From contig JAFDAM010000007.1 of NCBI GenBank assembly GCA_019313825.1, positions 1 through 47,429 on the forward strand: 47,429 nucleotides of DNA, in the 5' to 3' direction. A model generated the notes under the pieces. The model was not told the DNA's origin, did not search any database, and saw nothing but the letters and a program-made list of their open reading frames with translations. Below, piece by piece: positions 11,770 to 47,279 of the stretch (position 1 is its first letter; each line of letters opens with the position of its first letter). This stretch comes from Deltaproteobacteria bacterium. GTDB taxonomy: Bacteria; Desulfobacterota; DSM-4660; Desulfatiglandales; HGW-15. Both the position numbers and the translations under genes were made by a program.

Positions 11770-12233
11770 GTTTGTGTTTGTTGGTCACTATAATACGTTA
11801 TTTCAGAATTTACCAAGGTCCGGAAAAATAATCAATACAAGTTTCACGACATTCAGGCTATCGAGTTCACGGTTGATCAATCTCCAAGCTTGAACCTCGA
11901 ACCTTCGTGGTCACTATCTTTAGGCACTCCTGTCCAAAATCGATTTTTATTGGACAGCAATGATATTTGGCAGGCATTCACAGTCATTCACAGGTTACTA
12001 ATAAAGGAAATCCATGTGAAATCCGATGATACAGACATATGTTTTTCCTTGACACCTTGACCAACAATATGGCATGTAGAATTTTTCACAAACTTATATG
12101 GTAAACATTGCCCAAATGATACTTATTTACCCACTTGTGTAAAACCTTCCGCTCCTGCTATCCCTTGATATTTCATATAATTAAGGATAACATAACAGGT
12201 TGTTACAAGTGTATTAAACAGGAGACGTTTATT
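11770..12233. other. Intergenic region upstream of the hdrA operon
   Basis: A 464-bp gap between divergent genes that should hold the hdrA-mvhD-metVF promoter. A TTGACA at about 12050 and a TTGACC 8 bp further on occur in AT-rich DNA, but no well-spaced -10 is convincing. No sigma-54 site matches. A short heptad-like stretch TTGAACC/TCGAACC lies at 11890-11903. Nothing else is supported. Confidence 0.4.
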
Positions 12234-17229: not shown

Positions 17230-17901
17230 ATGATAGTTGCTGATCGAAAACCCATTCAAGAGATACTTGAAATGGTCAAGGATTGTAAGAAGGTCCTTAT
17301 TGTCGGATGCAAGGGCTGCGTCACTGTCTGCAACGTAGGCGGTAGCAAGGAGGTGGGCGTTCTTGCCGCCACTTTGAAGATTGCCTTTAAAAAAGAGGAG
17401 ATTTCCATTGAGATGGATGAAAAGACCCTTGAGAGACAGTGTGACCCTGAATACGTTGATCAGTTAAAGGATATGGTTGATGATTATGACGGGATTATCT
17501 CGATGGCATGCGGAGTAGGCCCTCAATTCCTGTCCGCGGCATATCCGGAGCAGCGCTTCTTCCCCGCGGTTAACACCACCTTCTTCGGCGGAGCCGTTGG
17601 GCATGGCATATGGGAAGAGAGATGTGCCGGCTGCGGGACCTGTGTGATACACTATTTCGACGGTATGTGCCCCATTGCCAGATGCTCCAAGAGCCTCCTG
17701 AACGGACCTTGCGGCGGCTCGGCAGACGGCAAGTGCGAGATCTCAAAAGATTTGGAATGCATATGGGATATGATCGTCAGGAAAAAGATGGAACATGGAC
17801 GCATTGATGATCTCCTGGAGATGAAACCTGCCAAGGACTGGCAGACTGCCAGGGACGGAGGACCACGAAAGAGTGTGAGGGAGGAACTGGCAAATGAGTG
17901 A
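17230..17901 (+). CDS. metV: MetV-like methylene-THF reductase zinc/Fe-S subunit
   Basis: A 223-aa protein with the MTHFR C-terminal-domain architecture. The N-terminus has VLIVGCKGCVTVCNVGGSKE, typical of MetV. The C-terminal half is cysteine-rich (CAGCGTCVIHYFDGMCPIARC, LLNGPCGG, GKCEISKDLECIW). In acetogens MetV partners MetF in 5,10-methylene-tetrahydrofolate reduction and binds Fe-S/zinc. It starts 11 bp after mvhD with a GAGGTG ribosome binding site and overlaps metF by 8 bp, so mvhD-metV-metF are clearly one operon. I infer that it bridges electrons from the HdrA/MvhD module to MetF. The full protein is present. Confidence 0.88.
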   Translation: MIVADRKPIQEILEMVKDCKKVLIVGCKGCVTVCNVGGSKEVGVLAATLKIAFKKEEISIEMDEKTLERQCDPEYVDQLKDMVDDYDGIISMACGVGPQFLSAAYPEQRFFPAVNTTFFGGAVGHGIWEERCAGCGTCVIHYFDGMCPIARCSKSLLNGPCGGSADGKCEISKDLECIWDMIVRKKMEHGRIDDLLEMKPAKDWQTARDGGPRKSVREELANE

Positions 17902-18826
17902 TATGAAAGCGGGAAGTAATCTGGAAAAGGTGCTGAAGGCAGGACACTTTGCCTTTACCGGCGAGTGCGGTCCTCCTAAGGGCGCCAATGTTGAACATCT
18001 CAAGGAGAAGGTCGCCCATCTGAAAGGGATGGTCGATTCGGTCAATGTGACCGATAACCAGACAGCCGTGGTAAGGATGTCCAGCTGGGCAGCCTCCGCC
18101 ATAATGGTACAGGAAGGCGTGGAACCCAATTTTCAGATGGTCTGCAGGGATCGTAATCGTCTTGCCATGATGAGTGATATCCTGGGCGTCTATGCAATGG
18201 GCATTAGAAACATGCTGTGTCTTTCAGGTGATCACCAGCGCTTCGGCAACCATCCACAGGCTAAAAACGTGTATGACATTGACTCCATACAACTCATCGC
18301 CATGGTAAAAATGATGAGGGATGAGGGACAGTTCATGAACGGTGAAGAGATAGATGAGTCGCCCAGGCTCTTTATCGGCGCGGCATCCAACCCCTTTGCC
18401 GACCCATTTGAGTACCGTGTCCACCGGCTGGCAAAAAAGATAGCGGCAGGGGCGGACTTTATCCAGACCCAGTGCATATACAACATGGATAAATTCAGGG
18501 ATTTCATGAAGATGGCGGTTGATATGGGGCTGCATGAAAAATGCTATATCCTGGCGGGCGTAACCCCCATGAAGAGCGTCGGTATGGCCCGGTACATGGC
18601 CAAATCTGTACCTGGCATGGATGTCCCGGAATCCTTGATCAAACGGTTAAAGGATGCGGGCAAGGGAAAGGTTGCTGAAGAAGGGATCAAATTCGCGCTT
18701 GAACAGATCGAGGAGTTCAAGGAGATGGAAGGGGTTGCGGGCGTTCATCTCATGGCCATAGAATGGGAGCACAGGGTCCCGGAGATAGCGGAAAGGGCCG
18801 GTGTTCTTCCAAGGCCTGAGGTCTGA
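17894..18826 (+). CDS. metF: 5,10-methylenetetrahydrofolate reductase
   Basis: 310 aa, the normal MetF length. Characteristic features are FAFTGECGPPKG near residue 17 (catalytic Glu in TGE), DSVNVTDNQTAVVRMSSW, LCLSGDHQRFGNHPQAK, and ADFIQTQCIYNMDKF near residue 197. It reduces methylene-THF to methyl-THF (or the reverse) with FAD in a TIM barrel. It is the last gene of the hdrA-mvhD-metV-metF cluster, followed by a clear intrinsic terminator. Together with MetV and HdrA/MvhD it should work in the methyl branch of the Wood-Ljungdahl pathway. The direction, acetyl-CoA oxidation or CO2 fixation, cannot be decided from this window. Confidence 0.93.
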   Translation: MSDMKAGSNLEKVLKAGHFAFTGECGPPKGANVEHLKEKVAHLKGMVDSVNVTDNQTAVVRMSSWAASAIMVQEGVEPNFQMVCRDRNRLAMMSDILGVYAMGIRNMLCLSGDHQRFGNHPQAKNVYDIDSIQLIAMVKMMRDEGQFMNGEEIDESPRLFIGAASNPFADPFEYRVHRLAKKIAAGADFIQTQCIYNMDKFRDFMKMAVDMGLHEKCYILAGVTPMKSVGMARYMAKSVPGMDVPESLIKRLKDAGKGKVAEEGIKFALEQIEEFKEMEGVAGVHLMAIEWEHRVPEIAERAGVLPRPEV

Positions 18827-30191: not shown

Positions 30192-30770
30192 ATGAAGACA
30201 ATTTTTCAAAAGATCTGGGAGTTGGCAAAACCGTATCTCAACACCCGGATGAATGATATCCACACTGAAATCTGCAGGGAATTTGCATACAGATTATTAA
30301 AGCTGGAAGGTGGAGATGAATATGTGGTGATTCCTGCAATCATCTTACATGATGTTGGGTGGATAGAGGTCCCGGAAAAGCTTCAAATAAAGGCATTCGG
30401 ACCAAATGCCACGGAACCGGGTCTAAAACGCAAACATGAAATTGAAGGTTCAAGGATAGCTGAAAATATCCTTAGACAGGTTCATTACGATAGGGACATA
30501 ACACTTGAAATCCTTAAGATAATTGACGGTCATGATACAAGAGAAGTGGCGACATCACTCAATGATAAGATTGTTAAAGATTCCGATAAGCTGTTCAGAT
30601 ACTCAAAAGAGGGTTTTTACATTGACCTTGAAAGATTTGAGGAATCTTTTAATGAGGCAATCAACAGACTTCAAAATGTGATTGATAAGTGGTTCTTTAC
30701 GGATTCGGCAAAAGAGTTTGCCTTAAAAGAATTAACAGATCGGTTAAATGAATCCGGGGTTCAGGGTTAG
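30192..30770 (+). CDS. HD-domain phosphohydrolase-like protein
   Basis: 192 aa. The HD motif is visible as VVIPAIILHDVGWIEVPEKL (about 46-65) with a preceding His in DIHTEICREFAYRLL and a following KIIDGHDTR and VKDSDKLFRYSKEG (about 140). These residues coordinate metals for phosphate ester hydrolysis, often of nucleotides. There is no other domain. The gap upstream contains a GTG-started 32-codon frame with a single hydrophobic stretch (30087-30185), too weak to call. Substrate unknown. Confidence 0.8.
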   Translation: MKTIFQKIWELAKPYLNTRMNDIHTEICREFAYRLLKLEGGDEYVVIPAIILHDVGWIEVPEKLQIKAFGPNATEPGLKRKHEIEGSRIAENILRQVHYDRDITLEILKIIDGHDTREVATSLNDKIVKDSDKLFRYSKEGFYIDLERFEESFNEAINRLQNVIDKWFFTDSAKEFALKELTDRLNESGVQG

Positions 30771-30928
30771 ATCACGTTTAATTTGGATTAGCTCAGAAAT
30801 TTAGTGCTTCGATTAATAATCAAAATGATATCAGATAACGCGCAATATATAATCAACAAGCTCAGTTGATGTTTTACGCAGATTCAGACTGACCATTAAA
30901 AAGAATATCTCCGGTAAAATCCAGACTA

Positions 30929-31354
30929 TTACAAATCATTTCCAATGACTTCGCCTTCCCTTTCAACAAGCTCGGTTAGAACGTTTAACGTAAACTTCGG
31001 ATCAATAAAGACTATTTTAGATTCATGTGCGCCCGCCCGGGGGGCTTTATCTATGGGGATTTTTAGTTTTTTAAGGCGATCTGTTGCAGTTTCTATATCC
31101 TCAACTCTTAATGCAATATGATGAAAACCTTCGCCATTTTCCTTTAAAAATATTCCTATCCGTCCTTTTCCGGATTCAGTGGGTTCCAGCAGCTCTATAA
31201 GCACTTCACCCAGAGGTATGAACGCAATCCTGACCTTTTTATCCTTGAGTGTCTCAATCTTTATCGGCTCAAGATTATATGCTCTTTTATACATCCTCAA
31301 AGCATCATCAAGATCATTGACTGCTATACCTAAGTGATCGATCTTTTTGATCAC
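30929..31354 (-). CDS. Methylmalonyl-CoA epimerase-like VOC protein
   Basis: 141 aa from a GTG start, 2 bp after the stop of the upstream carboxyltransferase-like gene. It is a single glyoxalase/VOC domain: KKIDHLGIAVNDLDDALRMY (metal His in DHLGIA), VLIELLEPT (Glu), GFHHIALRVEDIE (His) and NVLTELVERE (Glu) give the four expected metal ligands. The pattern matches methylmalonyl-CoA epimerase, which interconverts 2R and 2S epimers in propionate metabolism. The tandem link with a carboxyltransferase homologue supports acyl-CoA or oxo-acid chemistry, but the real substrate may differ given the unusual neighbour. Confidence 0.82.
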   Translation of the reverse strand: MIKKIDHLGIAVNDLDDALRMYKRAYNLEPIKIETLKDKKVRIAFIPLGEVLIELLEPTESGKGRIGIFLKENGEGFHHIALRVEDIETATDRLKKLKIPIDKAPRAGAHESKIVFIDPKFTLNVLTELVEREGEVIGNDL

Positions 31355-31356
31355 AT

Positions 31357-32703
31357 TTAATACCTCTCATATAAAGATTTAAGTTTTTTCCTAAATTCCC
31401 CTTCCGGTGTGGCAAGCTGGAGTAAGAGATCTTCATCGGACAGGCCCGGTGCAATTTTTCTTAATTCATCAACAGTAATTTCAGGCGGTTTCCTGTTCAT
31501 GAACTTCTTGGCTTTGGGTGAGTTAATTATTTTGTCCATGATATTCGGTTCTAGGGTTCCGTCAAGCTCTCCATAATATTCTAATGCATATCTTATTACT
31601 TCGTCGGGAATAATCTTGTAACGCTCACCTGAGGTAACGTTGAAGACCGCTTGGGCACCGACTACTTGAGAATAGGGTGTTGCCATAACCGGATAACCAA
31701 ATTCTTCACGGACAACACCGATCTCTTTCAGGACTTCCTCTAATCGATCAATCATGCCCATTTCGGAAAGCTGCTTTCTCAAAGTTCCCATCATTCCACC
31801 AGGTACTTGATGCCGGAACTGAAAATAGTCATACTCAACAGGCACACCCGTTTCCATGCGCCTTTTTCGAATCTCTTCAAAGTAATAGTCGGATACGGTC
31901 TTGAGCGCTTCTTGGTCAATTTGAGATGACAGACCCAGATGACGGGCGTTTTCTATGGTGTTCTCAGCGGAAGGCATGGAATGCCCGTTTGCCAATGGAA
32001 GAGCAGCCGTATGAAATGCCATGGCACCTTCTTTCATAGCCTCCACATAACACATGGGCGCAAGGCCGGCATTGCAATGGGAGTGAATCTCGATTGGAAT
32101 GCCCTTAGCTTCCTTTTGAATGGCAGGAACAAGTGTTCGTGTCCGGTCAGGAGTTAAGACCCCACCGGCATCTTCCAAGTGTATGGCATTCACGCCTCCT
32201 AGTTCGGCAATAGCCCGAGTTTTTTGAGCAAAAAGATCATCAGTATGCACAGGGCTGAGTGTGTACATTAATGCCACCACAATATCAGCCCCTTCGCTTT
32301 TGGCTACATTGACAAGATAGGAAAGCCTTTCACTCATTTTAGCGGTTTGGTAGTCACAGATCCAGAAGCTCCTTATACCGCTTGCGAATGCCTGTCTTAT
32401 CCAAAGCTCAAGCGCTGCAATAGGCTCCACATCAAATCCAAAAGCGCTCCATGTAGTAAAAGATGAACGCAGGGGGGTTTTGACAATCTTTTCGGAGAGA
32501 AGCCTCATCCTGTCGAAAATATTCTCGTTAAGATAGCGGCGCGCCATAACAGCACCCCGTGCACCAACAACACCTATGGCCTTGTATCCCACCTGATCCA
32601 CAACAGGTGCAATGGGAAGCATCATTTCCGTTGGCATCATAAAACCCCAGAGGCTCTGTTGGGCATCCCTTGTGGTCTGATCGATCAATTGAATCTCGTT
32701 CAC
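31357..32703 (-). CDS. Divergent pyruvate/oxaloacetate carboxyltransferase-like protein
   Basis: 448 aa, the length of PycB/transcarboxylase 5S-type proteins. It starts IQLIDQTTRDAQQSLWGF (metal-binding Asp and Arg near 8-13; usual form DTTLRDAHQS) and has metal-binding HSH in IEIHSHCNAG (about 207-209). The normally carbamylated Lys of the motif IKDMAG is replaced here: the matching stretch reads IHLEDAGGVLTP with Glu177. The C-terminal PYC_OADA-like part is present (EEIRKRRMETGVPVEYDYFQ, FGYPVMATPYSQVVGAQAVF). No biotin carrier is encoded nearby. It may not be a classical biotin carboxyltransferase, and another DRE-TIM-type reaction is possible. It is followed by the epimerase-like gene. 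Confidence 0.8.
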   Translation of the reverse strand: MNEIQLIDQTTRDAQQSLWGFMMPTEMMLPIAPVVDQVGYKAIGVVGARGAVMARRYLNENIFDRMRLLSEKIVKTPLRSSFTTWSAFGFDVEPIAALELWIRQAFASGIRSFWICDYQTAKMSERLSYLVNVAKSEGADIVVALMYTLSPVHTDDLFAQKTRAIAELGGVNAIHLEDAGGVLTPDRTRTLVPAIQKEAKGIPIEIHSHCNAGLAPMCYVEAMKEGAMAFHTAALPLANGHSMPSAENTIENARHLGLSSQIDQEALKTVSDYYFEEIRKRRMETGVPVEYDYFQFRHQVPGGMMGTLRKQLSEMGMIDRLEEVLKEIGVVREEFGYPVMATPYSQVVGAQAVFNVTSGERYKIIPDEVIRYALEYYGELDGTLEPNIMDKIINSPKAKKFMNRKPPEITVDELRKIAPGLSDEDLLLQLATPEGEFRKKLKSLYERY

Positions 32704-32983: not shown

Positions 32984-34024
32984 CTAGTACCGACCCATCA
33001 TCCTATCTAATGTCTTATCAATGGTGTCTTTCTTCTCCACTACTTTGGTTACTGGGCGTGCCTGTACCAAGAAGATGTTCTCCGGGAAAGAGAGTGTGTC
33101 ATCCAAGGCCCATTCTATGTCCAGAGGCATACCATAGGATTTTTCCAAAACAGCGGCAAATTCAGCTATTTTTAATGCCTCCTCATCACTTAGGCAAGGG
33201 AGAGACTGCCTATTCTCTGGAACTTCCTGCTCCTCCGTTCCCATATCCCCGATTACTATCTGCCTTAACTTGCAACTAATCTTCTTTTCTTCAAGCGTAG
33301 ATGTCTCCTTGTCTATTACATAGCGGTCGGGGATCACAACGCCTTGAACCACGCTTTCACCTGTGCCCCAGTTAGCTTCAAGCAATATCTTGGTATCATC
33401 ACCCGTACCAGGATGGACCGTAAAACCCACGCCTGCCGTACGAGGGGTTACCATCCTCTGGACACCAACGCCCATGGAGCCCGCCAGGACCGGAAGATTG
33501 TGTTTCTCCCGGTACATGATTGATCTTGCGGTATAAAGACTTGCCCAGCATCTTTTCACTTTCTCGAATAGCGCATCTTTACCTCTCACATTGAGGTAAC
33601 TGTCATATTGGCCGGCAAAGCTCGCAGTAGGTAGATCTTCAGCGACACCGCTCGACCTCACTGCCATAGGAACATCGGTCATCTGGCATTTTCGATTCAG
33701 TTCATCATAAGCACAGTCTATAGCATCCTGTATCTCCTCTGGGAGATCTTTTGGTAAGATAATGTCTTTTATGCGCTGGCTTACCTCTCCATATTCGGAG
33801 GGTGTCTTTGGCCTTTCGGGAAAGTTGTTTAGGTATTGCTCAATCTCTTCACCAGCTCCTGTTTGTGCCATAAACTCATCATACGCCTCAGTGGTCACAG
33901 CAAAACCAGGAGGCACAGGCAGCCCCATCCGTGTGATCTCTCCTAGGTTGGCATTCTTGGATCCCACAAGCGGAGTGAGTTCCTCGCCCACTTCCTCAAT
34001 CCACAATATTATGGGCTGAGGCAT
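32984..34024 (-). CDS. PEP-synthase-like ATP-binding subunit (PPDK_N domain)
   Basis: 346 aa covering only the N-terminal nucleotide-binding region of PEP synthase. It starts LIxWIEEVGEELTPLVGSKN-type sequence and shows GLPVPPGFAVTTEAYDEFM near 34, MAVRSSGVAEDLPTASFAGQ near 120, MVTPRTAGVGFTVHP near 190 and the terminal FLVQARPVTKV. It has no phosphohistidine or PEP-binding domain; these roles must be supplied by the upstream gene. The combination resembles phenylphosphate synthase, where a ~40-kDa subunit binds ATP. It has a good AAGGAGG ribosome binding site, 145 bp after the partner gene. Confidence 0.88.
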   Translation of the reverse strand: MPQPIILWIEEVGEELTPLVGSKNANLGEITRMGLPVPPGFAVTTEAYDEFMAQTGAGEEIEQYLNNFPERPKTPSEYGEVSQRIKDIILPKDLPEEIQDAIDCAYDELNRKCQMTDVPMAVRSSGVAEDLPTASFAGQYDSYLNVRGKDALFEKVKRCWASLYTARSIMYREKHNLPVLAGSMGVGVQRMVTPRTAGVGFTVHPGTGDDTKILLEANWGTGESVVQGVVIPDRYVIDKETSTLEEKKISCKLRQIVIGDMGTEEQEVPENRQSLPCLSDEEALKIAEFAAVLEKSYGMPLDIEWALDDTLSFPENIFLVQARPVTKVVEKKDTIDKTLDRMMGRY

Positions 34025-34169
34025 ATCCTGTCCTCCTTGTTCGGCCTTTCCTATTATAATAGGGCCATCGACAGGCCCAAAGGATCTAGGGTTTTTAAGA
34101 TCCCGGGCGCCTTTACGTGTTTATTGGATCACTATCCTCTCTTAAAACGCGCCCCCACAGTTTTCCGTC

Positions 34170-35828
34170 TTAATCCAGGATATGGACCTGGCACGTATTT
34201 CCATCCACACGTACCCTCTGTCCTGTCTTTATCTTCCTGGTGGCCTCCTGGGTACCCACCACACCAGGGATACCGAACTCACGGGCCACTATAAGGGCAT
34301 GACTCAAGTAGCCTCCACCGTCAGTAATAATACCCTTGATGACGTTAAAGATCGGGGTCCAACCAGGAGTTGTGCCGGGAGCAACCAGAATCGCATCCGG
34401 CCCTATCGTATCCATTTCAGTGTCGCTCATTAATACATAAGCAGTGCCTTCAACCACACCAGGTGAACCGGCACATCCGACCAATGACGCCCCAACCTCC
34501 TCTGGTGTTGCTATTGGTTGTGCCGCAGCCACCGAGAATATTACGTCTGCTTCAACAAGTTCAGAAATTTTTGTAGGATCACCCAGGAAAAACGGCAGGG
34601 TCCCTTCCAATTTCCTGTAATCACTGTATTCCTGTTTCCTCTTTTCTACCAGGCTTCCTAGGTCACACCTCTGCTTGATGATACCGGTATGGAATATCTC
34701 ATCATGGTTCAGGAACAATGCGTCTTCCGGTTCGTCAATCATGCCTTTTTCCGTAAACCTGCGGCCCAGTTCCAAGGCAGATAGCCTAACCGCGCTGAAA
34801 GGAATGCCTTCCACATAAATGGTATGATCCTCACTGAATACATGAGAAGCCTGGCTGCACTCCATCAGTTTCTTGAACACTTCACGCTCTTCAGAGGGGA
34901 CATCCTTTAAGAGCTGTTCCTCGAGCGCTTTTCTGCGACTTTCCAACTGTGGCCTCACTTCATCGGTACTGGCGCTGACTATACCCTGTTTAATATAGCG
35001 CTGTATCTCCCTGAGCGGCAGTGTATTATCTTCCAACCATGTTGGTGTGTTGATCTCCAGAAAACGCACTCTCATCCATCCGAATTCATTCATCATTTCA
35101 TTGAATTTATCAATCCATTGCTTTCCTTTATCGTTTGCTTCCAATTTGGACAAAAGCTCTTCCGGTTCTGTTTCTTTGAAGGTCCCTTCAAGACCTGAAT
35201 TTATGGCCATGGAACTCAATTCCGATAAGCGCTGAGCTAACTTCATAAAATCGTTATCAAAGCCTGAGTTTAATTGCGAGTATTCCACATCTTCGGGATT
35301 GATATTCAGCAATTGCTTCAGCATTCTTCGAAATTGAATATTCCCCTGACCCAGGGCGTACATGCAATAGAAGTGTATTTCCGCTACCCTTTTAATAAAA
35401 TGGCAAGACTCCATAAAATGGTCGCATAACTCGATATCGCTTAAGGCTTTGAGGTCAACACCCCAGACTTTGTCTATTCCTTCTTTTAGCTCTGCCTTTT
35501 GTTTTGTCCACATGGCCCAGGGATCTTCCAAAATTACGCGCATCTTCTCACGCCAATCCTTTTCACGCAGCTTTTTTTCCTCTTCAGTAGTTTCTATGAC
35601 GGTCAGGTAAAAACCTCCTTTATTAAAGCGCCAGTCCCATCCATGGGTTCTTGGATCGCTAAGCATTTCTGGCCCGTACTGCATACCGTATTTCCCATAA
35701 GTATACCAGATATCCACAAACAATGGGCACCATGGCGGTGGGTACCACATTGCCCCTAATACCCAGGCCTTATAGTTTTTTAGGTCCACCTCTTCGTTAA
35801 AGTCATATAAAGGTCTATCGTATGGCAT
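34170..35828 (-). CDS. PEP-utilising-type phosphotransferase subunit with swivelling His domain
   Basis: 552 aa with AAGGAGGGAG before the ATG. The C-terminal ~100 residues are the mobile PEP-utiliser domain: ILVAPGTTPGWTPIF, then ITDGGGYLSHALIVAREFGI with the phosphorylated His near residue 515, and GVVGTQEATRKIKTGQ. The N-terminal ~400 residues are a helical domain unlike the PEP/pyruvate barrel of PpsA. So the enzyme is not an ordinary PEP synthase but resembles the large subunit of phenylphosphate synthase or rifampin phosphotransferase. I infer transfer of phosphate from ATP (bound by the next subunit) via His to an unknown substrate. Confidence 0.87.
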   Translation of the reverse strand: MPYDRPLYDFNEEVDLKNYKAWVLGAMWYPPPWCPLFVDIWYTYGKYGMQYGPEMLSDPRTHGWDWRFNKGGFYLTVIETTEEEKKLREKDWREKMRVILEDPWAMWTKQKAELKEGIDKVWGVDLKALSDIELCDHFMESCHFIKRVAEIHFYCMYALGQGNIQFRRMLKQLLNINPEDVEYSQLNSGFDNDFMKLAQRLSELSSMAINSGLEGTFKETEPEELLSKLEANDKGKQWIDKFNEMMNEFGWMRVRFLEINTPTWLEDNTLPLREIQRYIKQGIVSASTDEVRPQLESRRKALEEQLLKDVPSEEREVFKKLMECSQASHVFSEDHTIYVEGIPFSAVRLSALELGRRFTEKGMIDEPEDALFLNHDEIFHTGIIKQRCDLGSLVEKRKQEYSDYRKLEGTLPFFLGDPTKISELVEADVIFSVAAAQPIATPEEVGASLVGCAGSPGVVEGTAYVLMSDTEMDTIGPDAILVAPGTTPGWTPIFNVIKGIITDGGGYLSHALIVAREFGIPGVVGTQEATRKIKTGQRVRVDGNTCQVHILD

Positions 35829-35925
35829 TGGTCTCCCTCCTTTCTTTACATGTTAAGGATTTAGAAACATAAAAGTAAATAAACCTATCCACATAAGTTT
35901 AGCTTATATGAAGTTATGGCCAGGC

Positions 35926-36618
35926 TTAAAAGCCGGCAATAAGCCTTTCCACCATAAACTCTATGAAAGAGTAGACATCTTCCTGTCGTTCCATTCCTCT
36001 GATGTTAATTCGGGTAGCGACTTGCTGATAAATTTCAATGCGCTCTGTTTCATCCAATGCCAAAAGCGCTTTAGGATTAAGCTCCATGATAACAAGCTCT
36101 TTATGTACACTATTTAATATTTTCTCCATCTCCTCAGGTTCTTCATTGAATCTTTGGGGATAGCGAGAATCGGTTTTATCGTACTTCACATACTCCTTCT
36201 TTCCACCGGCTTCAAAGATTCCTTCTCGTCTTTCAACCTGCCCTTCCAGTTCGTATAGTTTTGAGATGTTTTCGCTTAGAATCAGTAAGCTGTTCAGTTC
36301 TTTAGGTGTTCGTTTTATAATAAACAACTCAGGGTATTCGGCCCCAACTTCCAGGGACAGTCTTCCCCTGTCTTCCACTCTCTCAATAATGTAATATCGT
36401 AAAAGATCCACCTCATCCTTATCGACTCCGACTACCTCTTGCCAGCCGTCCTGCCACTTTAACAGAAGGTAATTCCTTGATGCTTTGATTCCGCCAGGTG
36501 TAGAGCAAAGCCCCAATTTGGAAAGTTCTGTTCGGATCTCCCTGCTTACCTTTCCAAAAGCCATTTCTTTTACGGACCCATCATCATATTCTACGATCAA
36601 TTTACTCGGTGTGCTCAT
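35926..36618 (-). CDS. Unrecognised 230-aa protein in the phosphotransferase operon
   Basis: The start overlaps the end of the HAD gene by 17 bp, and the split phosphotransferase genes follow 97 bp downstream, so it is part of the operon. The N-terminal ~90 residues are beta-rich (IVEYDDGSVKEMAFGKV, NYLLLKWQDGWQEVVGV). The rest is charged and helical (ISKLYELEGQVERREG, DETERIEIYQQVATRINI). No metal or nucleotide motif, no CBS domain and no membrane helix is visible. By position it could be the third subunit, as phenylphosphate synthase also has a ~24-kDa third subunit, but no sequence resemblance was recognised. Confidence 0.8.
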   Translation of the reverse strand: MSTPSKLIVEYDDGSVKEMAFGKVSREIRTELSKLGLCSTPGGIKASRNYLLLKWQDGWQEVVGVDKDEVDLLRYYIIERVEDRGRLSLEVGAEYPELFIIKRTPKELNSLLILSENISKLYELEGQVERREGIFEAGGKKEYVKYDKTDSRYPQRFNEEPEEMEKILNSVHKELVIMELNPKALLALDETERIEIYQQVATRINIRGMERQEDVYSFIEFMVERLIAGF

Positions 36619-37354
36619 TCACATACCCCTTTATAATGTCTTTCAACTCTGAAAAATGCCCTATTGTGTAATCTGCTTTTGACGGTGCATGAAAGATATA
36701 GCCGGTGTAGTGGATGGCCTTAAAGCCTCTTTTTTGCGCCGGTGTAAGGTCAGACCACTCTTTGTCCCCAACCATAACCGCCTCAGATGTTTTGATACCA
36801 CGTTTCAGAAGATCTTCTTTCAAGATATCATAAAGGTCCCCCTTTTCTTTGGAGAATCCCATATACTTTTTATCCAGTGAACCATCACGAATATTGACTT
36901 TACCCTGCGGGGTGATCATCTCATGAAAGAAGTGATCTATGTTTTGAGTTTTCAAAAATCTGCTGACCTGGTCTGTACCGATCGGCCCGAAGGTCCTTTT
37001 TAATTCCGCAACAACAGAGATCTCTATGCCCTTGTTTTTAAGATATTTAAGCGTGTCTATGGCACCATCCGCTACCTTAAGATACTTTTGCTCAATAACG
37101 GAAAAACGTTCGGCCGCGTCCGGATGGTCATCAAACACATAACTCATGATCTCGGGTCTGTGGCCCTCCTTTATGGCAGGATAGGTGCCGTATCTCTCTT
37201 TCATTACTCTCCATCTGTGGCACCTTACGTCAACCATCTCAGGCTCACCAAGTTCTTTGCTCGTGTCCCCGATCATCCAGTAGGTACGTTCCGGAGATGT
37301 ATCACATAGGGTTTGTCCAAAATCTATTCCAACCCACTTGACATTCATGGCCAT
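36602..37354 (-). CDS. HAD-like protein with altered motif I
   Basis: 250 aa. The first gene of the operon has AAAGGA upstream. HAD motif I reads WVGIDFGQTLCD: the nucleophile Asp11 is kept but the second Asp of DxDGT is Gly13, and the next Gly is Gln. Motif III Lys lies near KGDLYDILKEDLLKRG. Motif IV is MVGDKEWSDLTPAQKRGFKA near residue 200. Loss of the general acid Asp is seen in non-phosphatase HADs such as phosphonatases. It may act on the phosphorylated product of the downstream phosphotransferase, or have another role. Phenylphosphate carboxylase also contains a HAD-type subunit, which is a suggestive parallel only. Confidence 0.82.
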   Translation of the reverse strand: MAMNVKWVGIDFGQTLCDTSPERTYWMIGDTSKELGEPEMVDVRCHRWRVMKERYGTYPAIKEGHRPEIMSYVFDDHPDAAERFSVIEQKYLKVADGAIDTLKYLKNKGIEISVVAELKRTFGPIGTDQVSRFLKTQNIDHFFHEMITPQGKVNIRDGSLDKKYMGFSKEKGDLYDILKEDLLKRGIKTSEAVMVGDKEWSDLTPAQKRGFKAIHYTGYIFHAPSKADYTIGHFSELKDIIKGYVNEHTE

Positions 37355-37513: not shown

Positions 37514-38500
37514 TTATCGAGTCGAAACCCTTATCCTCTCCAGGTAGTTGCTCCTCCGGCATTTTGGACAGAATTGAATATAATCATCGGTTATTTTCAG
37601 GCCGACATTTTCTATTTTCCGCATCAGCGGTCCCGGCGCGTACAGCCCATTGCATTGTTCACACTCCTTGAGTTCCACTGACCGTATGGTCTCTCTTGAG
37701 GTTGGCCGGAAAAGCCTTAAGATGTCTATTTCATGCCTTAGCTCTGCTGCCTTTTCAGGGCAAGTATTAACGCATGCCCCGCATGAGATACATTGATAAA
37801 GGAGGTACGAAAAGATTCGATTCCTTCCTTCATCTCTGAATTCAAGCGTACCGGTCGGGCAGCTCAGCTCGCACGCCGCGCAGCCAGTGCACATTTCTCT
37901 GTTGAGCCTGGTCCTGCAAAACAAAAAGGCAACCATAATCAGCATAAGTTCCCCGCTCAGTATATGAATTGTTCCTATATTGTCGCCGAGGAAAGCAATG
38001 GAGTCCAGGGTCCCGTGGGCATAGAAATATCCGGTGAGAAAAGGGAGAGCTGTTATAATTATCAAAAGGAGATCCTCTTTTTTTGATTCGGTGCGGATCC
38101 CGGACAATATAACACGTCTTATGAAGAGATATGCCGCAATGAATAGGAAAAGTAGTGTCATCCAATCTGCCCATTCATCCGAAAGCGTTCCCCAGGTCCA
38201 ATCGAACCTGGACTCCTCCCACAAGGCGATATGTCCGGCCAACCAGATGGGAACGACGAACAGGCATATGTGGAACAGATAGCGCAGGGCAGCATAGACA
38301 GGTTTCTTAATAACAGCCATGTGAAAAGGGAGAAAGAGACGGAGGAATGAAACCAGGGTGTTACTCCATCCCGGGTTCCTGGGCTTACTGCTTTTTATGA
38401 TGACAAAGGAGAAGAATATGAACCTCGTGACAATTCCGGCGGCGAAAAACAGGAATGAAAACCAAAGCAAGGGGCCCTCGATAAAGGAAATAAATGCCAT
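37514..38500 (-). CDS. Membrane haem-b/4Fe-4S subunit of a molybdoenzyme complex
   Basis: 328 aa from ATG 38500; the track uses TTG 38515. Five membrane helices (IEGPLLWFSFLFFAAGIV, LRYLFHICLFVVPIWLAGHI, TLLFLFIAAYLFIRRVIL and two more) carry histidines placed as in NarI/DsrM-type cytochrome b subunits. They are followed by two 4Fe-4S motifs CTGCAACELSCP and CISCGACVNTCP (about 215-265) and a C-terminal CEQCNG...CPKC zinc-ribbon-like pair. It is the last gene after the molybdenum and ferredoxin subunits. It should exchange electrons with menaquinone, with the iron-sulfur part on the cytoplasmic side. Confidence 0.83.
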   Translation of the reverse strand: MAFISFIEGPLLWFSFLFFAAGIVTRFIFFSFVIIKSSKPRNPGWSNTLVSFLRLFLPFHMAVIKKPVYAALRYLFHICLFVVPIWLAGHIALWEESRFDWTWGTLSDEWADWMTLLFLFIAAYLFIRRVILSGIRTESKKEDLLLIIITALPFLTGYFYAHGTLDSIAFLGDNIGTIHILSGELMLIMVAFLFCRTRLNREMCTGCAACELSCPTGTLEFRDEGRNRIFSYLLYQCISCGACVNTCPEKAAELRHEIDILRLFRPTSRETIRSVELKECEQCNGLYAPGPLMRKIENVGLKITDDYIQFCPKCRRSNYLERIRVSTR

Positions 38501-38585
38501 AATAGAGGTTTCCAAATAGACGATTTAAAATTTATAAATCCATGGAAGGATATCCATGACACAAAGTTGAAATGTCCCGGCACGA

Positions 38586-38699: not shown

Positions 38700-39242
38700 C
38701 TATTCCATCTTACCACCGGCTATTCTCTCGACAGCCTTTCTGGCGCGAAGTTCGGAGATCTCCTCCGGTGACGCTACATATATGGCGCTTGCTGGGCAGG
38801 CCGCCTCACACGCCGTCTTTTTACCCTCCCTGAGCCTGTCGATACAGAGATCGCACAGTACCAACTTTCCGTCTTCATTGAAGCTCGGGGCGCCATATGG
38901 ACAGACCCATAGACAGGCCTTGCATCCGATGCACCGTTCCTGATCAACAAGGGTAATATGGGTCTCTGAATCTTTTAAGATGGCAGATGACGGACAGACC
39001 TTGATACAGGGGGCATCTTCACAGTGCATGCAAGCGATACTCACAAAGGGCTGATGCACGTTGTCACCGCTTATCTCTGGATCGACATGATAGACCTGAA
39101 TAAGGTTTACACCCTTAGGATCGGCAGCAGCGCCCGTTGTATTATGAGGCGGGAACATGTGTTTAAGTTTGCATGCTATAATACAGGTCTTACAGTTCAT
39201 ACATTGAGCCGGATCACGAAAAACTGACTTGCGTGTCATCAC
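38700..39242 (-). CDS. Four-cluster 4Fe-4S electron-transfer subunit
   Basis: 180 aa of the DMSO-reductase/hydrogenase-4 type iron-sulfur subunit. Four cysteine groups are seen: CMNCKTCIIACK (about 14-25), CMHCEDAPCIKVCP (about 70), CIGCKACLWVCP (about 103) and CDLCIDRLREG...CEAACP (about 130). It conducts electrons between the molybdenum subunit and the membrane subunit. The start overlaps the end of the molybdenum-subunit gene by 29 bp. There is no signal peptide, so the complex faces the cytoplasm. Confidence 0.92.
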   Translation of the reverse strand: MMTRKSVFRDPAQCMNCKTCIIACKLKHMFPPHNTTGAAADPKGVNLIQVYHVDPEISGDNVHQPFVSIACMHCEDAPCIKVCPSSAILKDSETHITLVDQERCIGCKACLWVCPYGAPSFNEDGKLVLCDLCIDRLREGKKTACEAACPASAIYVASPEEISELRARKAVERIAGGKME

Positions 39243-41379
39243 CTTCCTCCATTTTATAAATCTTACAGAGCAGCGCTCTCATATTTACGGAACCTGCAGG
39301 CCCGTCAAACGGTCCATCATCACTTGTCAAGACGTTTGCGTTGCTGGGCAGCACCCTTTCAGGCCCTTGCTTCTCCCAATAGCAGAATGAGGCCTGCACA
39401 ACCACAAGCCTGGGGTCCATACCGGAAAACATTTTTGCCTTCTGCCTTATCCTGCCCCTCTTGGTCTCTATCCAGACCCAGTCACCTTCCTCTATCCCGT
39501 ACTCCTTGGCCGTATCAGGATGTATCTGGACCAGGGGATAGGGCTGCAACTCCCTTATCCAGGGGAGATTCGTGTACTGGGTATGGAAATGATAAGGAAT
39601 CCTTCCACCGGTACTCAAAAGAAGCGGGTACTCCTTTGCCACCTCGGGCGTTGAATAGTAGGATTCGCCGGGCTCGATATGGGACGGCAGGGGATCGTAA
39701 CCAGCCTTTTCGAGCGCTGTGGAATAAAGCTCAACCTTGCCCGTAGCAGTAGGGAAACCACCGCCCTTTACCCAGTAGTCGGTCTTGTGCTTATAGTACT
39801 TCTGATCCTTGCCGGTCGTAGACAGATGACCCAGTTTTGAAAACTCTTTCCATGTGATATCCGCTTTTCTGAGCTGATAGTCCAGCATCTCTTCAACCGA
39901 GTTCCACGGCCAGAACTTGGGTGCCACCCTTCTACCGATCTCAAAGTATATCTTTGGAGTGGTCCATGCCTCTCCGGGCGGGTCAATAGCCTTGTTTACC
40001 GCCCTGGTACAGAATCCAGGATGCGTATTCCACAGGTCTTCCTCCTCCAGCCAGTGTGCAACAGGAAGAACAACATCCGCAATCTCGCACATGGCTGACA
40101 TAAACTGGTCCGCCACTGAAAGGAACTCCAGATTGAGCAACGCCTTTCGCACATTCTGAGTATTGGCAAGGCTGAACAGGAAATTACCCCCATGCTGGTG
40201 CAGCATCTTCAGGTCGCAGTTGCCTTCCCTCAACTGCCTCAGGACCGTCTCAGTATGACAGCGACCGTAATCAAGAAAGCGGTGTTTGTCGGAGCCGATT
40301 GCCTTTTCAATATTCTCCGGCTTAATGTTATCAAATATCTCAAATCCAAAGGCAGCCATAGGTCCACAAGCCGGGTGTATCCAGTTCATCATACTTCCCG
40401 GCCTCTCCACATTACCGGTTATGGCCATCAGACACATAATGGACCTGCCGTTGCTCGTGCTGTTGTTCGATGCATCCAGGGATTCTCCTGTCTGGATCAC
40501 ACCCGGAGTATCAATGGCAAACATGCGGGCCGCTTTTACAATCTTCTCTTTGGGAATCCAAGTGATCTCTTCAACCTTGGCAGGTGGATACTCCTGAACC
40601 CGCTCTTTCAATTTATCAAAACCGTGAGTCCAGTTTGCGACAAACTCTCTGTCATGAAGATTCTCGTTGATGATGACATTCATCATTCCAAGGGCCAGCG
40701 CTGCGTCGGTGCCGGGCCTTATCTGAAGCCACAGATTGGCTTTATTGGCAATGGACGTCGCCCTGGGATCAACCAATATCAGGTTCTTGGCGTGTTTTAA
40801 CGCCTCAAAAAACCATACCGCCATCTCACCGTCAGAGCTGGAATACTCTATCTGTTTTCCCCATGATATCTGGGTCTTGGGATACTCTCCGCCCCATCCA
40901 TGGTAGTCGCAATAGAGCCTGTTAAACCCAAAAGTGGCCTCAAAAGCCCTCAGGCGGGGAAAATAACATATATGGCTGGACCCGATGCCCCGGTTGCCCG
41001 TGCCGATTGAATTACCCAATCTCACCGTATACCTGTTATACCCCCTGCCCGTGCCCTGACTGTTACATATGGCATTCGGCCCGTGCTTTTCGATAAGTTC
41101 CTTCATCTTGCCGGTTATTGTCTCAAGGGCCTCATCCCAGCTTACCCTCTCCCATTTACCTTCACCTCGCTCACCTGCCCTTTTAAAGGGGTACTTGAGG
41201 CGGTCGGGATGATTAATATGCTGGATGCTTGCCAGTCCCTTGGCGCACATGGTGCCTCTTGTTATTGACTCGGGATCACCCTCGAGATACGTGACTACAC
41301 CGTTTTCAACGGTGATAATCACTCCACATCCGCCATGGCATGCCTTACAAACACTTTTTATAAATTGTTTATCACCCAT
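39214..41379 (-). CDS. Molybdopterin oxidoreductase, DMSO-reductase family, cytoplasmic
   Basis: 721 aa with an AAGGAGC ribosome binding site. The N-terminal 4Fe-4S site is C11-x2-C14-x3-C18-x26-C45 (CKACHGGCGVI). Family blocks follow: WDEALETITGKMKELIEKHG, NLILVDPRATSIANKANLWL, GTDAALALGMMNVIINENLH, and a C-terminal KEYPLLLSTGGR and YGIEEGDWVWIETKRGRI. In GIGSSHICYFPRLRAF, Cys138 falls where acetylene hydratase and periplasmic nitrate reductase-type enzymes have the Mo/W ligand. There is no twin-arginine signal. The nearest relatives by eye are polysulfide/thiosulfate reductase-like and acetylene hydratase-like enzymes. The substrate is unknown. It is followed by its ferredoxin and membrane subunits. 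Confidence 0.9.
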   Translation of the reverse strand: MGDKQFIKSVCKACHGGCGVIITVENGVVTYLEGDPESITRGTMCAKGLASIQHINHPDRLKYPFKRAGERGEGKWERVSWDEALETITGKMKELIEKHGPNAICNSQGTGRGYNRYTVRLGNSIGTGNRGIGSSHICYFPRLRAFEATFGFNRLYCDYHGWGGEYPKTQISWGKQIEYSSSDGEMAVWFFEALKHAKNLILVDPRATSIANKANLWLQIRPGTDAALALGMMNVIINENLHDREFVANWTHGFDKLKERVQEYPPAKVEEITWIPKEKIVKAARMFAIDTPGVIQTGESLDASNNSTSNGRSIMCLMAITGNVERPGSMMNWIHPACGPMAAFGFEIFDNIKPENIEKAIGSDKHRFLDYGRCHTETVLRQLREGNCDLKMLHQHGGNFLFSLANTQNVRKALLNLEFLSVADQFMSAMCEIADVVLPVAHWLEEEDLWNTHPGFCTRAVNKAIDPPGEAWTTPKIYFEIGRRVAPKFWPWNSVEEMLDYQLRKADITWKEFSKLGHLSTTGKDQKYYKHKTDYWVKGGGFPTATGKVELYSTALEKAGYDPLPSHIEPGESYYSTPEVAKEYPLLLSTGGRIPYHFHTQYTNLPWIRELQPYPLVQIHPDTAKEYGIEEGDWVWIETKRGRIRQKAKMFSGMDPRLVVVQASFCYWEKQGPERVLPSNANVLTSDDGPFDGPAGSVNMRALLCKIYKMEEGDDTQVSFS

Positions 41380-44641: not shown

Positions 44642-44992
44642 CAGATTTCCCCCCACAGTCCCCATCTGTCTCAACTGCACTGATCCCACATTTTTCGCTG
44701 CCTGACTGATTGCCGGGTACTTTTCAATAATCACCGGATCTTTCACCAAGTGGTGAAGCCTCACAAGCGCACCCAGACTCAATCCGGATTCTTCATCATA
44801 ATCCACCGAATCAAGCCAGGCGATGCTTCATAGCGATACGACATAGCTGGGCCTCGAGATCCTCTTTTTCATGGATGGAAAAAGATCCGTACCACCGGCC
44901 GTGATCTTGCTTTCCTCTCCGTGCTCTTTCAAAAAAAGGACTGCTTTTTGAATAGAGTCCGGCTCAACGTACTCAAAATCAGGCAGCCGCAT
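44639..44992 (-). pseudogene. Broken FAD subunit of a molybdenum hydroxylase (CoxM/XdhB-like)
   Basis: The minus-strand ATG 44992 overlaps the end of the molybdenum-subunit gene by 14 bp. It reads RLPDFEYVEPDSIQKAV, then ITAGGTDLFPSMKKR, the FAD-binding start of the CoxM/XdhB family. An in-frame TGA at codon 55 (44828-44830) follows VVSL. The same frame continues as family sequence (LDSVDYDEESGLSLGALVRL, AAKNVGSVQLRQMGTVGGNL) and then ends at TAA where repeat copy D begins. About 60% of the ~285-residue protein is missing. The TGA falls where relatives have Lys/Arg rather than a conserved Cys, so selenocysteine is unlikely. Confidence 0.8.
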
Positions 44993-47279
44993 CTTGGTTC
45001 TCCTTATTCTTCAAGCCTTTCAAGATCTTTTCAGGGGTGATGGGAAGGTCCATGACCCATACCCCGACCGCATTGTATACGGCATTGGCAATGGCCGGTG
45101 ACGGGGCGATGATAGATCCCTCACTCATCCCTTTAGCCCCGAACGGACCTCCCGGATCAGGTTCAGCCAAAAGCTCATTCACGATGACCGGCGCATCAAG
45201 GGCCGTAGGGATCTTATATTCAAGAAATGAGGGGTTCATGATTTGCCCTTCTTTAAAGACAAGTTCCTCATATAGGGACTGACCAAGGGCCTGACAGGCT
45301 GATCCCTCCAGCTGGCCTTCGGCCTGCATGGGGTTGATGGGCTGCCCGCCGTCATGGGCCCCGGAAATCCTTATGACATCCACCTGGCCGGTCAGGCCAT
45401 CAACTTCTACCTCTACAATATCGGTACCGAACCCATAAGCAGGCGAAGAATGTCCCTCATAGGTCTCATGGTTCACAACAACCGTGGGAGGGGTATATAA
45501 ACCCCTCCCCAGGATGTGAAAATCCTTGGAATAGAGGCTTCCCTTTACAGCGTCCCTAAAAGTCATCCCTTTGCTGGGACTTCCTTTCACATAGACCCTT
45601 CCATCCTTTGCCACCAGATCTGAAATATCAGCTTCCAGGGATTCAGCCACGTAGGGAAACAGCTGTCTTTTTACGTCCTCTGCAGCGGCCTTTACGGCAT
45701 TACCGGAGACATAGGTTACACGGCTTGAATAAGTACCATAGTCAAAAGGTGTGATCTCCGTATCACCCGAGATAACCGTCAGGTCTTCCACACTGATCCC
45801 AAGCTCCTCGCAGGCAATCTGGGCAAGGGTCGTGTTGGAGCCCTGGCCGATATCAGTGGCGCCCGTCAATAAGGTTGCCGTACCGTCTTCAAACACCTTT
45901 ATTATGGCCGCGGTTGCATCATGGGGGTTATACCTTGAGCCCGAGACATAGGCCCATATGCCTGCACCCAGTCCTCGACCGGCTTCCATTCTGTCTCTTT
46001 TTTCTTTCCATCGCTCGTTTTCTGAAACCAGGTTGATGCATTCTTTCATGGCGCAGCTAGGAATCCAGGCCTTATTCGGCATCACGTCACCCGACTCATG
46101 GGCGTTCTTTAATCTTAGATCCATTGGATCAATGCCCAGCTCTTCGGCGATCATGTCCATCTGGCAATCCGCAGCAAACCTCATCTGGAGGTTTCCCCAT
46201 CCCCTAAAAGCCCCGCTGGGGGCATGATTGGTATAAACATTATGGCCTTCATATCTCATATTCTGAAGACGGTATCCCATGAATACCTGCACACCGGCTC
46301 TTCCGATGATGGCAGGTCCCCAACTGTTATACGCCCCGGTATCGGCCACAGCCTTTGAATCTACGGCAAGCAACGTACCGTCTTTGGCCACACCGGTCTT
46401 GATCGTAATAAAATAGGGGTGTCTGATTCTTGTTGTACAGAACTCTTCCTCACGGGTATTGACTATCTTGACCGGCTGCCCGGCCTTTCTTGAAAGCAGC
46501 GCCGCAATGGCGTCAACGGGGAAAAGGCCGTCGGATTTACCGCCGAAACCGCCTCCTACAAACTGCTTGGTTACCCTGATCTTGTTAAGCGGCATGTCAA
46601 GATAACGGGAAAGGGTCTCCGCTGTCTTGAAGGGGCTCTGGGTGGAACTCCATATGGATACCTTATCCGACTGCTCCCAGTGCGCAACGGCGCAATGAAC
46701 CTCCATGGCGCAATGGGTAGTGGCCTGTGTTTTAAATCGGTCTACTCGAATGTAAAAGGCTTCTTTCATAGCCTTATCCACATCTCCGTGAAAGAATTGG
46801 GCGGTTCTGGAGATATTTCTCTCTGATTTTTCATGAAGAAGAGGGGCCCCGGGGTCCATTGCCTCGTAAGGGTCAAACACGGCCGGAAGTTCTTCATATT
46901 CAACCTCAATAAGATTTAACGCCTCTTCCGCGATCCACTCGTCTGTTGCAGCTACAGCCGCCACCTCATCACCGATATAACGAACCTTATCGATGGCCAA
47001 GGGGGTTTGATCGTAAAGTTCAGGCAGGTTTGTGAAAAGGCTGTACTTTTTATTGCGAGGTAAATCAGCCCCCGTCAGGACAGCCCTTACACCATGAAGC
47101 CGCTCTGCCCTTTCCGCATTAATATTTAGAATTTTTGCATGTGGAACATGGCTTCGAAGGACTTTGCCAAACAGCATCCCCGGGAGCCGGACGTCTACAG
47201 TGAACTCAGCCGCACCGGTAGCCTTGACTTTCCCATCTATAGGCGGAACCCTCTTTCCAATCAGTGAATATTCGTTCAT
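44979..47279 (-). CDS. Xanthine-dehydrogenase-family molybdenum-binding subunit
   Basis: 766 aa, the full length of XdhA/CoxL-type subunits. Motifs are GKRVPPIDGKVKATGAAEF near 8, cofactor-binding VGGGFGGKSDGLFPVDAIAA near 240, GAFRGWGNLQMRFA near 355, LLTGATDIGQGSNTTLAQIA near 465, and GPFGAKGMSEGSIIAPSPAI near 720 with the catalytic Glu. Such enzymes hydroxylate or dehydroxylate aromatic heterocycles, aldehydes or aryl-CoA substrates. The FAD partner gene directly downstream is broken, and no small 2Fe-2S subunit is seen in the 150 bp upstream. YqeC in the neighbourhood hints at a selenium-containing cofactor. The substrate is unknown. The enzyme may be orphaned or partner a subunit encoded elsewhere. 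Confidence 0.9.
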   Translation of the reverse strand: MNEYSLIGKRVPPIDGKVKATGAAEFTVDVRLPGMLFGKVLRSHVPHAKILNINAERAERLHGVRAVLTGADLPRNKKYSLFTNLPELYDQTPLAIDKVRYIGDEVAAVAATDEWIAEEALNLIEVEYEELPAVFDPYEAMDPGAPLLHEKSERNISRTAQFFHGDVDKAMKEAFYIRVDRFKTQATTHCAMEVHCAVAHWEQSDKVSIWSSTQSPFKTAETLSRYLDMPLNKIRVTKQFVGGGFGGKSDGLFPVDAIAALLSRKAGQPVKIVNTREEEFCTTRIRHPYFITIKTGVAKDGTLLAVDSKAVADTGAYNSWGPAIIGRAGVQVFMGYRLQNMRYEGHNVYTNHAPSGAFRGWGNLQMRFAADCQMDMIAEELGIDPMDLRLKNAHESGDVMPNKAWIPSCAMKECINLVSENERWKEKRDRMEAGRGLGAGIWAYVSGSRYNPHDATAAIIKVFEDGTATLLTGATDIGQGSNTTLAQIACEELGISVEDLTVISGDTEITPFDYGTYSSRVTYVSGNAVKAAAEDVKRQLFPYVAESLEADISDLVAKDGRVYVKGSPSKGMTFRDAVKGSLYSKDFHILGRGLYTPPTVVVNHETYEGHSSPAYGFGTDIVEVEVDGLTGQVDVIRISGAHDGGQPINPMQAEGQLEGSACQALGQSLYEELVFKEGQIMNPSFLEYKIPTALDAPVIVNELLAEPDPGGPFGAKGMSEGSIIAPSPAIANAVYNAVGVWVMDLPITPEKILKGLKNKENQDAAA

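Follow-up and report, generated by a model that had tools for sequence, protein, structure and literature searches.

A six-gene run in the MAG of a Desulfobacterota bacterium probably combines a two-component, ATP-dependent dikinase with a carboxylation step that depends on biotin, a reading to which we assign a probability of about 0.6. The run lies in the window, i.e., the whole stretch of 47,429 nucleotides that was analysed. The cluster is real and conserved, and its tie between dikinase and carboxylation is shown by gene linkage; the substrate and the order of the steps are what we infer. A preliminary description of this DNA had placed four genes at 32984-37354. Its coordinates and domain reading were correct, but it ended two genes early, short of a carboxyltransferase (CT) and a VOC protein. 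The features of the locus and its surroundings are the following:

30192-30770, plus strand: HD-domain protein, 192 aa, convergent (identity to HD proteins of dikinase clusters)
30910-30925, minus strand: terminator-like stem where the run ends (weak evidence, from a consensus only)
30929-31354, minus strand: VOC protein, methylmalonyl-CoA-epimerase-like, 2 bases after CT (TIGR03081; VOC in L117)
31357-32703, minus strand: CT, 448 aa, pyruvate-carboxylase/OadA type without biotinyl domain (PYC_OADA 1e-29, tree, active-site columns)
32984-34024, minus strand: ATPg, 346-aa dikinase subunit with ATP-grasp domain (PPDK_N, PpsB/CreI/HpeI-type identity, 9goj match)
34170-35828, minus strand: HisD, 552-aa dikinase subunit with helical substrate domain and C-terminal swivel domain, phospho-His510 (PEP-utilizers, rifampin phosphotransferase match, tree)
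35926-36618, minus strand: U230, 230 aa, beta-rich N-domain and helical C-domain, without known family or fold (profile searches, AF2, fold search, linkage)
36602-37354, minus strand: HAD-superfamily protein, 250 aa, C1-cap type (HAD_2, invariant columns, AF2, Foldseek)
37514-38515, minus strand: TmcC-like membrane anchor with ferredoxin domain (NCBIfam-type profile match)
38700-39242, minus strand: Fe-S subunit of the Mo enzyme (DmsB-like)
39214-41379, minus strand: DMSO-reductase-family Mo oxidoreductase (domain search)
44979-47279, minus strand: 4-hydroxybenzoyl-CoA-reductase-alpha-like Mo hydroxylase, whose pathway membership is only putative (TIGR03194 720.7 bits, cut-off 994.6)

Along the minus strand, the open reading frames of the window give the order HAD, U230, HisD, ATPg, CT, and VOC, separated by -17 (the U230 gene overlaps the HAD gene by 17 bases), 97, 145, 280, and 2 bases. 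The first four each have an ATG start and a Shine-Dalgarno-like sequence, and the Mo oxidoreductase set (41379-37514) lies upstream of HAD on the same strand. A terminator scan returned no minus-strand site within the gaps of the run and one right after VOC, which hints weakly that HAD to VOC may form one transcription unit; sigma-70-like sites were no more frequent than in shuffles. Since the gap between ATPg and CT measures 280 bases, co-transcription of CT with the dikinase is not certain.

ATPg is a complete ATP-grasp subunit: it matches PPDK_N at 3e-104 (Pfam), shares 40-42% identity with PpsB-, CreI-, and HpeI-type proteins, and matches the solved HpeI structure 9goj at 2.7e-62. In HisD, the PEP-utilizers domain is confined to the C-terminus (residues 477-545, 4e-24, Pfam) and carries the phospho-His motif GGGYLSH, with the catalytic His510 located in the G-rich stretch TDGGGYLSHALIVARE. 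The split PEP-synthase-like phosphotransferase of the preliminary description stands, with PPDK_N on ATPg and PEP-utilizers on HisD. One gene supplies the ATP-grasp domain and another the phospho-His and substrate domains, which marks the pair, by its predicted architecture at the sequence level, as a two-component small-molecule dikinase. It had also been claimed that a helical domain of ~400 residues replaces the PEP/pyruvate barrel. The barrel is indeed absent in the Pfam domain search, but the helical domain is not peculiar to this locus: rifampin phosphotransferase aligns with HisD residues 218-552, and HpeH, CreH, and PpsA bear a counterpart as well, so that the architecture is a known one. 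HpeHI has been described as a two-component enzyme in which the helical substrate domain of rifampin phosphotransferase replaces the PEP/pyruvate domain (PMC12167813, JBC). Rifampin phosphotransferase and PEP synthase themselves share the ATP-grasp and swivel phospho-His domains with the window pair, but are single polypeptides, and PEP synthase bears the PEP/pyruvate domain that the window pair lacks. By analogy with characterised family members, ATPg would transfer the beta-phosphate of ATP onto His510, and the swivel domain of HisD would pass it on to a ketone- or phenol-type substrate in the helical domain.

A phylogeny of the 552-aa subunit, which had been suggested as a check, did not make HisD a clear orthologue of any characterised enzyme. 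It shares 25-27% identity with HpeH-, CreH-, and PpsA-type proteins and, in a maximum-likelihood tree, joins a 64% identical relative (genome G220) in a 19-member clade with support 100/99. The rows named by gene context as PpsA (annotated Pps/Ppc cluster, Azoarcus KH32C), CreH (P450 cluster in R. ruber), and HpeH (Hpe-like gene order, R. leguminosarum and JS3073) form a clade of their own without it (100/100). Nearest to the window clade are carboxylase-linked dikinases, here called group B (93/90). A scan of genome contigs with HisD alone as query gave no relatives. We know of no characterised member of either the HisD or the CT clade of this locus.

The logic of phenylphosphate synthase, to which the preliminary description had pointed, holds as that of a split phosphotransferase: PpsABC of Thauera/Azoarcus likewise carries ATP-grasp and phospho-His on separate genes, and dikinase chemistry is expected. 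A diverged phenol kinase of this type, with U230 in place of the CBS-domain subunit, might feed a UbiD carboxylase encoded elsewhere. The 42% identity of ATPg to PpsB would fit this, as would the eight UbiD genes that the MAG carries outside the window, two of them beside Mo enzymes related to that of the window; the earlier statement that UbiD is missing is thus true of the window, but not of the MAG. Yet the system is not phenylphosphate synthase, because HisD (about 27% identical to PpsA) falls outside the PpsA/CreH/HpeH clade and the window holds neither a CBS-domain gene nor a UbiD-type phenylphosphate carboxylase. U230 has no family or BLAST similarity to PpsC, and a Pps-type cluster from the same phylum (L129, with UbiD, UbiX, and CBS) uses a HisD from the other HisD clade. 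We therefore regard such a phenol kinase as improbable.

The HAD protein matches Pfam HAD_2 at 8e-8, and its predicted fold is that of a C1-cap HAD (AF2 pLDDT 86.7; Foldseek to HAD hydrolases E 4e-12). The alteration of motif I that had been noticed before is confirmed: D11-x-G13, i.e., D-F/Y-G, replaces D-x-D, the general acid is missing, and the Gly at its position is invariant in all 16 aligned relatives. Asp11, Lys169, Asp197, and Asp202 are retained. The protein may hydrolyse a phosphorylated intermediate, act as a phosphotransferase, or serve as an accessory subunit; BLAST found no significant similarity between it and PpcD or HpeD/AcvF-type proteins.

U230, which the preliminary description could not place, matched no Pfam or NCBIfam family here either; a weak match to CagX (E 0.056) was disregarded. 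Its predicted structure (AF2 pLDDT 82.7) comprises a beta domain and a helical domain, for which a fold search against the PDB gave nothing significant (best E 0.067), and in Pelotomaculum and BRH_c4b the gene is split in two at exactly this domain boundary. Yet U230 does belong to the dikinase system, as is seen from its co-occurrence and linkage with HAD. At strong E-values, the 6 genomes (of 395) that have one also have the other, with the two genes adjacent in each, and U230 adjoins HAD in 21 of the 22 tabulated HAD loci, with L145 carrying HAD alone. Weak U230 profile matches of 50-60 residues in other genomes, at least some of them in TRAP substrate-binding proteins (L085), were taken as chance. 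The HAD scan of named genomes yielded 16 loci in Desulfobacterota, Acidobacteria, Actinomycetota, and Bacillota, including Pelotomaculum terephthalicicum. In the neighbourhood survey that had been proposed, a dikinase subunit lies near HAD in 15 of the 22 sampled loci; the other seven are mostly short contigs, contig edges, or loci missing other markers. One of these seven, L131, encodes CT, biotin carboxylase, HAD, U230, Tm1, CoA ligase, and thiolase in one operon. Its HAD is the closest to that of the window (68%; U230 47%), and it ties the HAD-U230 pair to a carboxylase.

In the window itself, a candidate for the downstream step is present in the gene after ATPg, which encodes a biotin-type carboxyltransferase. 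CT shares with pyruvate carboxylase subunit B and oxaloacetate decarboxylase alpha (OadA) the CT fold, the metal-ligand Asp, and His-x-His. It differs from them in the active-site columns—Glu stands at the carbamyl-Lys position and the pyruvate-binding Arg motif LLRGQN is replaced—and in the lack of a biotinyl domain. Its scores also stay below the NCBIfam thresholds, both that of pyruvate carboxylase subunit B (316 vs 402) and that of 5S. In the CT tree, it belongs to a clade (100/98) whose eight other members all bear a C-terminal biotinyl domain. Close relatives, 50-54% identical, have varying sets of biotin carboxylase, CoA ligase, HMG-CoA-synthase-like, thiolase, and UPF0261 genes as neighbours.

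The CT fold is also common to HMG-CoA lyase and 4-hydroxy-2-oxovalerate aldolase. With no biotinyl domain on CT and no biotin carboxylase in the MAG, one could think of a biotin-independent, metal-dependent aldolase or lyase that acts on a phosphorylated compound and uses Glu for the carbamyl-Lys. However, the same Lys-to-Glu change is present in biotinyl-bearing relatives, most of them beside biotin carboxylase, and in Hpe/Acv-type clusters, too, the CT is without an attached biotinyl domain and the carrier is encoded by a gene of its own, which leaves an aldolase or lyase very improbable.

Dikinase genes adjoin CTs of the window clade in L064, L065, and L113 and lie beside a related CT in L060; by genome, dikinase and CT share one cluster in G179, G301, and G222, and in G027 the dikinase stands beside a more distant CT. 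For G220, HisD, ATPg, and Mo enzyme can be linked to CT and biotin carboxylase by inference across an IS-split Mo gene: the Mo gene beside the 64% dikinase (L048/L114) is cut at about residue 262, and transposase-like sequence is present on both contig ends. Clusters of Hpe/Acv order on plasmids (R. leguminosarum, Rhodococcus JS3073, and S. bisphenolicum) bear the same type of CT, 34-40% identical to that of the window over the full length, the range being 34-42% when related clusters are included. These CTs form a clade separate from the window CT, and the LLRGQN motif is lost in both. Plasmid pRB98 of R. oxybenzonivorans (L155) carries a row of genes for dikinase-like proteins, carrier, biotin carboxylase, CT (42%), thiolase, and a protein of the tyrosine-phosphatase type, and this CT has in common with the window CT clade the Glu at the carbamyl-Lys site, which is Lys in OadA. 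The strain name points to oxybenzone degradation. A low-molecular-weight protein-tyrosine-phosphatase-like gene, possibly an aryl-phosphate phosphatase, is also found downstream of the group B dikinase-carboxylase cluster of L064 (13974-14642). As the CT relatives are biotinyl-bearing and stand beside biotin carboxylase, some also beside dikinases, and given the L131 operon and the CTs of Hpe/Acv-type clusters, the downstream step is likely a biotin-dependent carboxylation of a phosphorylated ketone.

VOC reaches 111.8 bits against TIGR03081 (methylmalonyl-CoA epimerase; cut-off 114.95), is 31% identical to a VOC protein in a carboxylase cluster (L117), and is a possible epimerase for an alpha-substituted beta-keto acid/CoA. 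Its likeness to methylmalonyl-CoA epimerase, together with the 280 bases before CT and the lack of biotin carboxylase in the MAG, would suit a different division of the locus: dikinase, HAD, and U230 as one system that phosphorylates an aromatic or alicyclic hydroxyl without carboxylation, and CT with VOC as a separate downstream unit, e.g., for a transcarboxylase-like step of propionate/methylmalonyl metabolism. Most HAD-U230-dikinase loci agree with this, as they lack a CT and have genes for amidohydrolase, CoA ligase, and OYE. Still, members of the CT clade are linked to dikinases in several genomes and to HAD-U230 in L131, and the window CT has lost both the pyruvate Arg and the carbamyl-Lys, besides its scores below the cut-offs named above. 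All in all, we consider such a division somewhat unlikely.

Coupling of dikinase and carboxylase has a precedent in the Hpe pathway, where carboxylation requires prior phosphorylation; its steps need no oxygen, and it may, according to its authors, have arisen in an anaerobe (PMC9618137). Kinase and carboxylase genes are clustered in only 52 of 836 cases (PMC13101465). The Hpe/Acv systems (HpeHI dikinase, HpeCBA carboxylase, and HpeD phosphatase; R. rhodochrous GD02 and Sphingobium SYK-6) resemble the window in their two-component dikinase and HAD protein, and clusters of that layout also in a related PYC-type CT without fused biotinyl domain next to the dikinase. On the other side, HisD and CT of the window lie outside the HpeH and HpeB clades (trees with rows named by gene context), its HAD belongs to a different subfamily with altered motif I and is, by BLAST, not of the NagD-like HpeD type, and U230, Mo enzyme, and VOC are extra, whereas biotin carboxylase, carrier, CoA ligase, and cleaving enzyme are missing from the window. 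The locus probably follows the strategy of the Hpe/Acv hydroxyaryl-ketone pathway, built from another dikinase clade, another CT clade, and an undescribed HAD-U230 module.

After phosphorylation, CT would carboxylate the substrate, probably next to the carbonyl, in concert with a biotin carboxylase and a carrier presumably encoded elsewhere. HAD and/or the nearby HD protein would probably remove the phosphate from the product, VOC may equilibrate the alpha-stereocentre, and genes outside the window would convert the product to a CoA thioester for cleavage. The substrate might be a ketone, probably a hydroxyaryl one; CT, the Hpe analogy, the 4-hydroxybenzoyl-CoA-reductase-like gene, and the eight UbiD genes suggest this and none proves it. 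Several points count against the coupled dikinase-carboxylase reading: the MAG, which is 65% complete, yielded no biotin carboxylase; HisD is about 27% identical to characterised-type phenol kinases; 280 bases separate ATPg from CT; BLAST finds no similarity between the HAD of the window and the HpeD type; CoA ligase and thiolase are absent from the window; and the majority of HAD-U230 loci have a dikinase and no CT. The single clear carrier protein of the MAG (104 aa) adjoins a different carboxyltransferase. The further idea of a distinct oxygen-independent ketone activation—phosphorylation by the dikinase, possibly yielding an enol phosphate instead of a phenol phosphate, carboxylation by a PYC-type biotin CT with the Lys-to-Glu change, and a general-acid-less HAD with new-fold U230 as a previously unknown phosphoryl-handling or regulatory module common to several dikinase clades—is speculative and, in our view, unlikely.

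The phosphorylate-then-carboxylate strategy is known from lignin degraders and would here be realised by different branches of the same enzyme families with an extra protein. The locus and its Desulfobacterota relatives are candidates for anaerobic versions of the Hpe pathway, from which testable predictions follow about a possible anaerobic attack on ketones or phenolic ketones. Also, this explains a neighbourhood that annotators would divide into "PEP synthase" and "pyruvate carboxylase", and it brings up U230 as an unstudied protein of unmatched fold travelling with such kinases. Two other systems were considered and set aside: in the portions available, the accounts of sulfate-reducer acetone pathways run via 2-hydroxyisobutyryl-CoA and mention no dikinase or PEP-synthase-like enzyme, and that of the benzene "Magic" cluster (PMC13101534) describes no dikinase.

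Related dikinases are found in other settings. Group A (L049, L052, L054-L056, L061, L062, and L066), widespread in the phylum, combines dikinases from the clade of the window HisD with an SDR and a pair of phytoene-desaturase-like flavoproteins, in many loci also with ARMT1-like (DUF89), NIPSNAP-like, or HD proteins. Group C (L011-L013, L015, L080, L081, L134, L142, and L143) pairs a third dikinase clade with HAD-U230 and ACMSD-like amidohydrolases, and many of its loci have CoA ligase and OYE-like genes. The HD protein of the window shares about 50% identity with HD genes of group A clusters; for two HD proteins from the CreHI-type cluster of R. ruber, the identities are 37% and 34%. It is a candidate phosphohydrolase of a phosphorylated intermediate. 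The CreHI 4-cresol kinase is a two-component dikinase as well, but serves an oxygen-dependent P450 pathway without carboxylase.

The Mo oxidoreductase recurs, with homologues beside dikinase, HAD-U230, or CT in G220, L010, L014, and L081. From gene content and relatives, the organism is probably anaerobic. One array of the MAG (G000:C19, L180), in the order Mo enzyme, UbiD, XDH family, UbiD, Mo enzyme, resembles an island for the anaerobic (de)carboxylation/hydroxylation of aromatics; both of its Mo enzymes are 38-39% identical to the window Mo protein. Within the window, a 1509-aa HdrA-like multidomain flavoprotein (12135-16664) is followed by MetV/MetF-like genes (17230-18826). On another contig (G000:C57, L179), a CoA ligase (48%) related to the group B ligase stands beside a thiolase, a branched-chain-type ABC transporter, and a B12-dependent mutase pair, the sizes of which match 2-hydroxyisobutyryl-CoA mutase.
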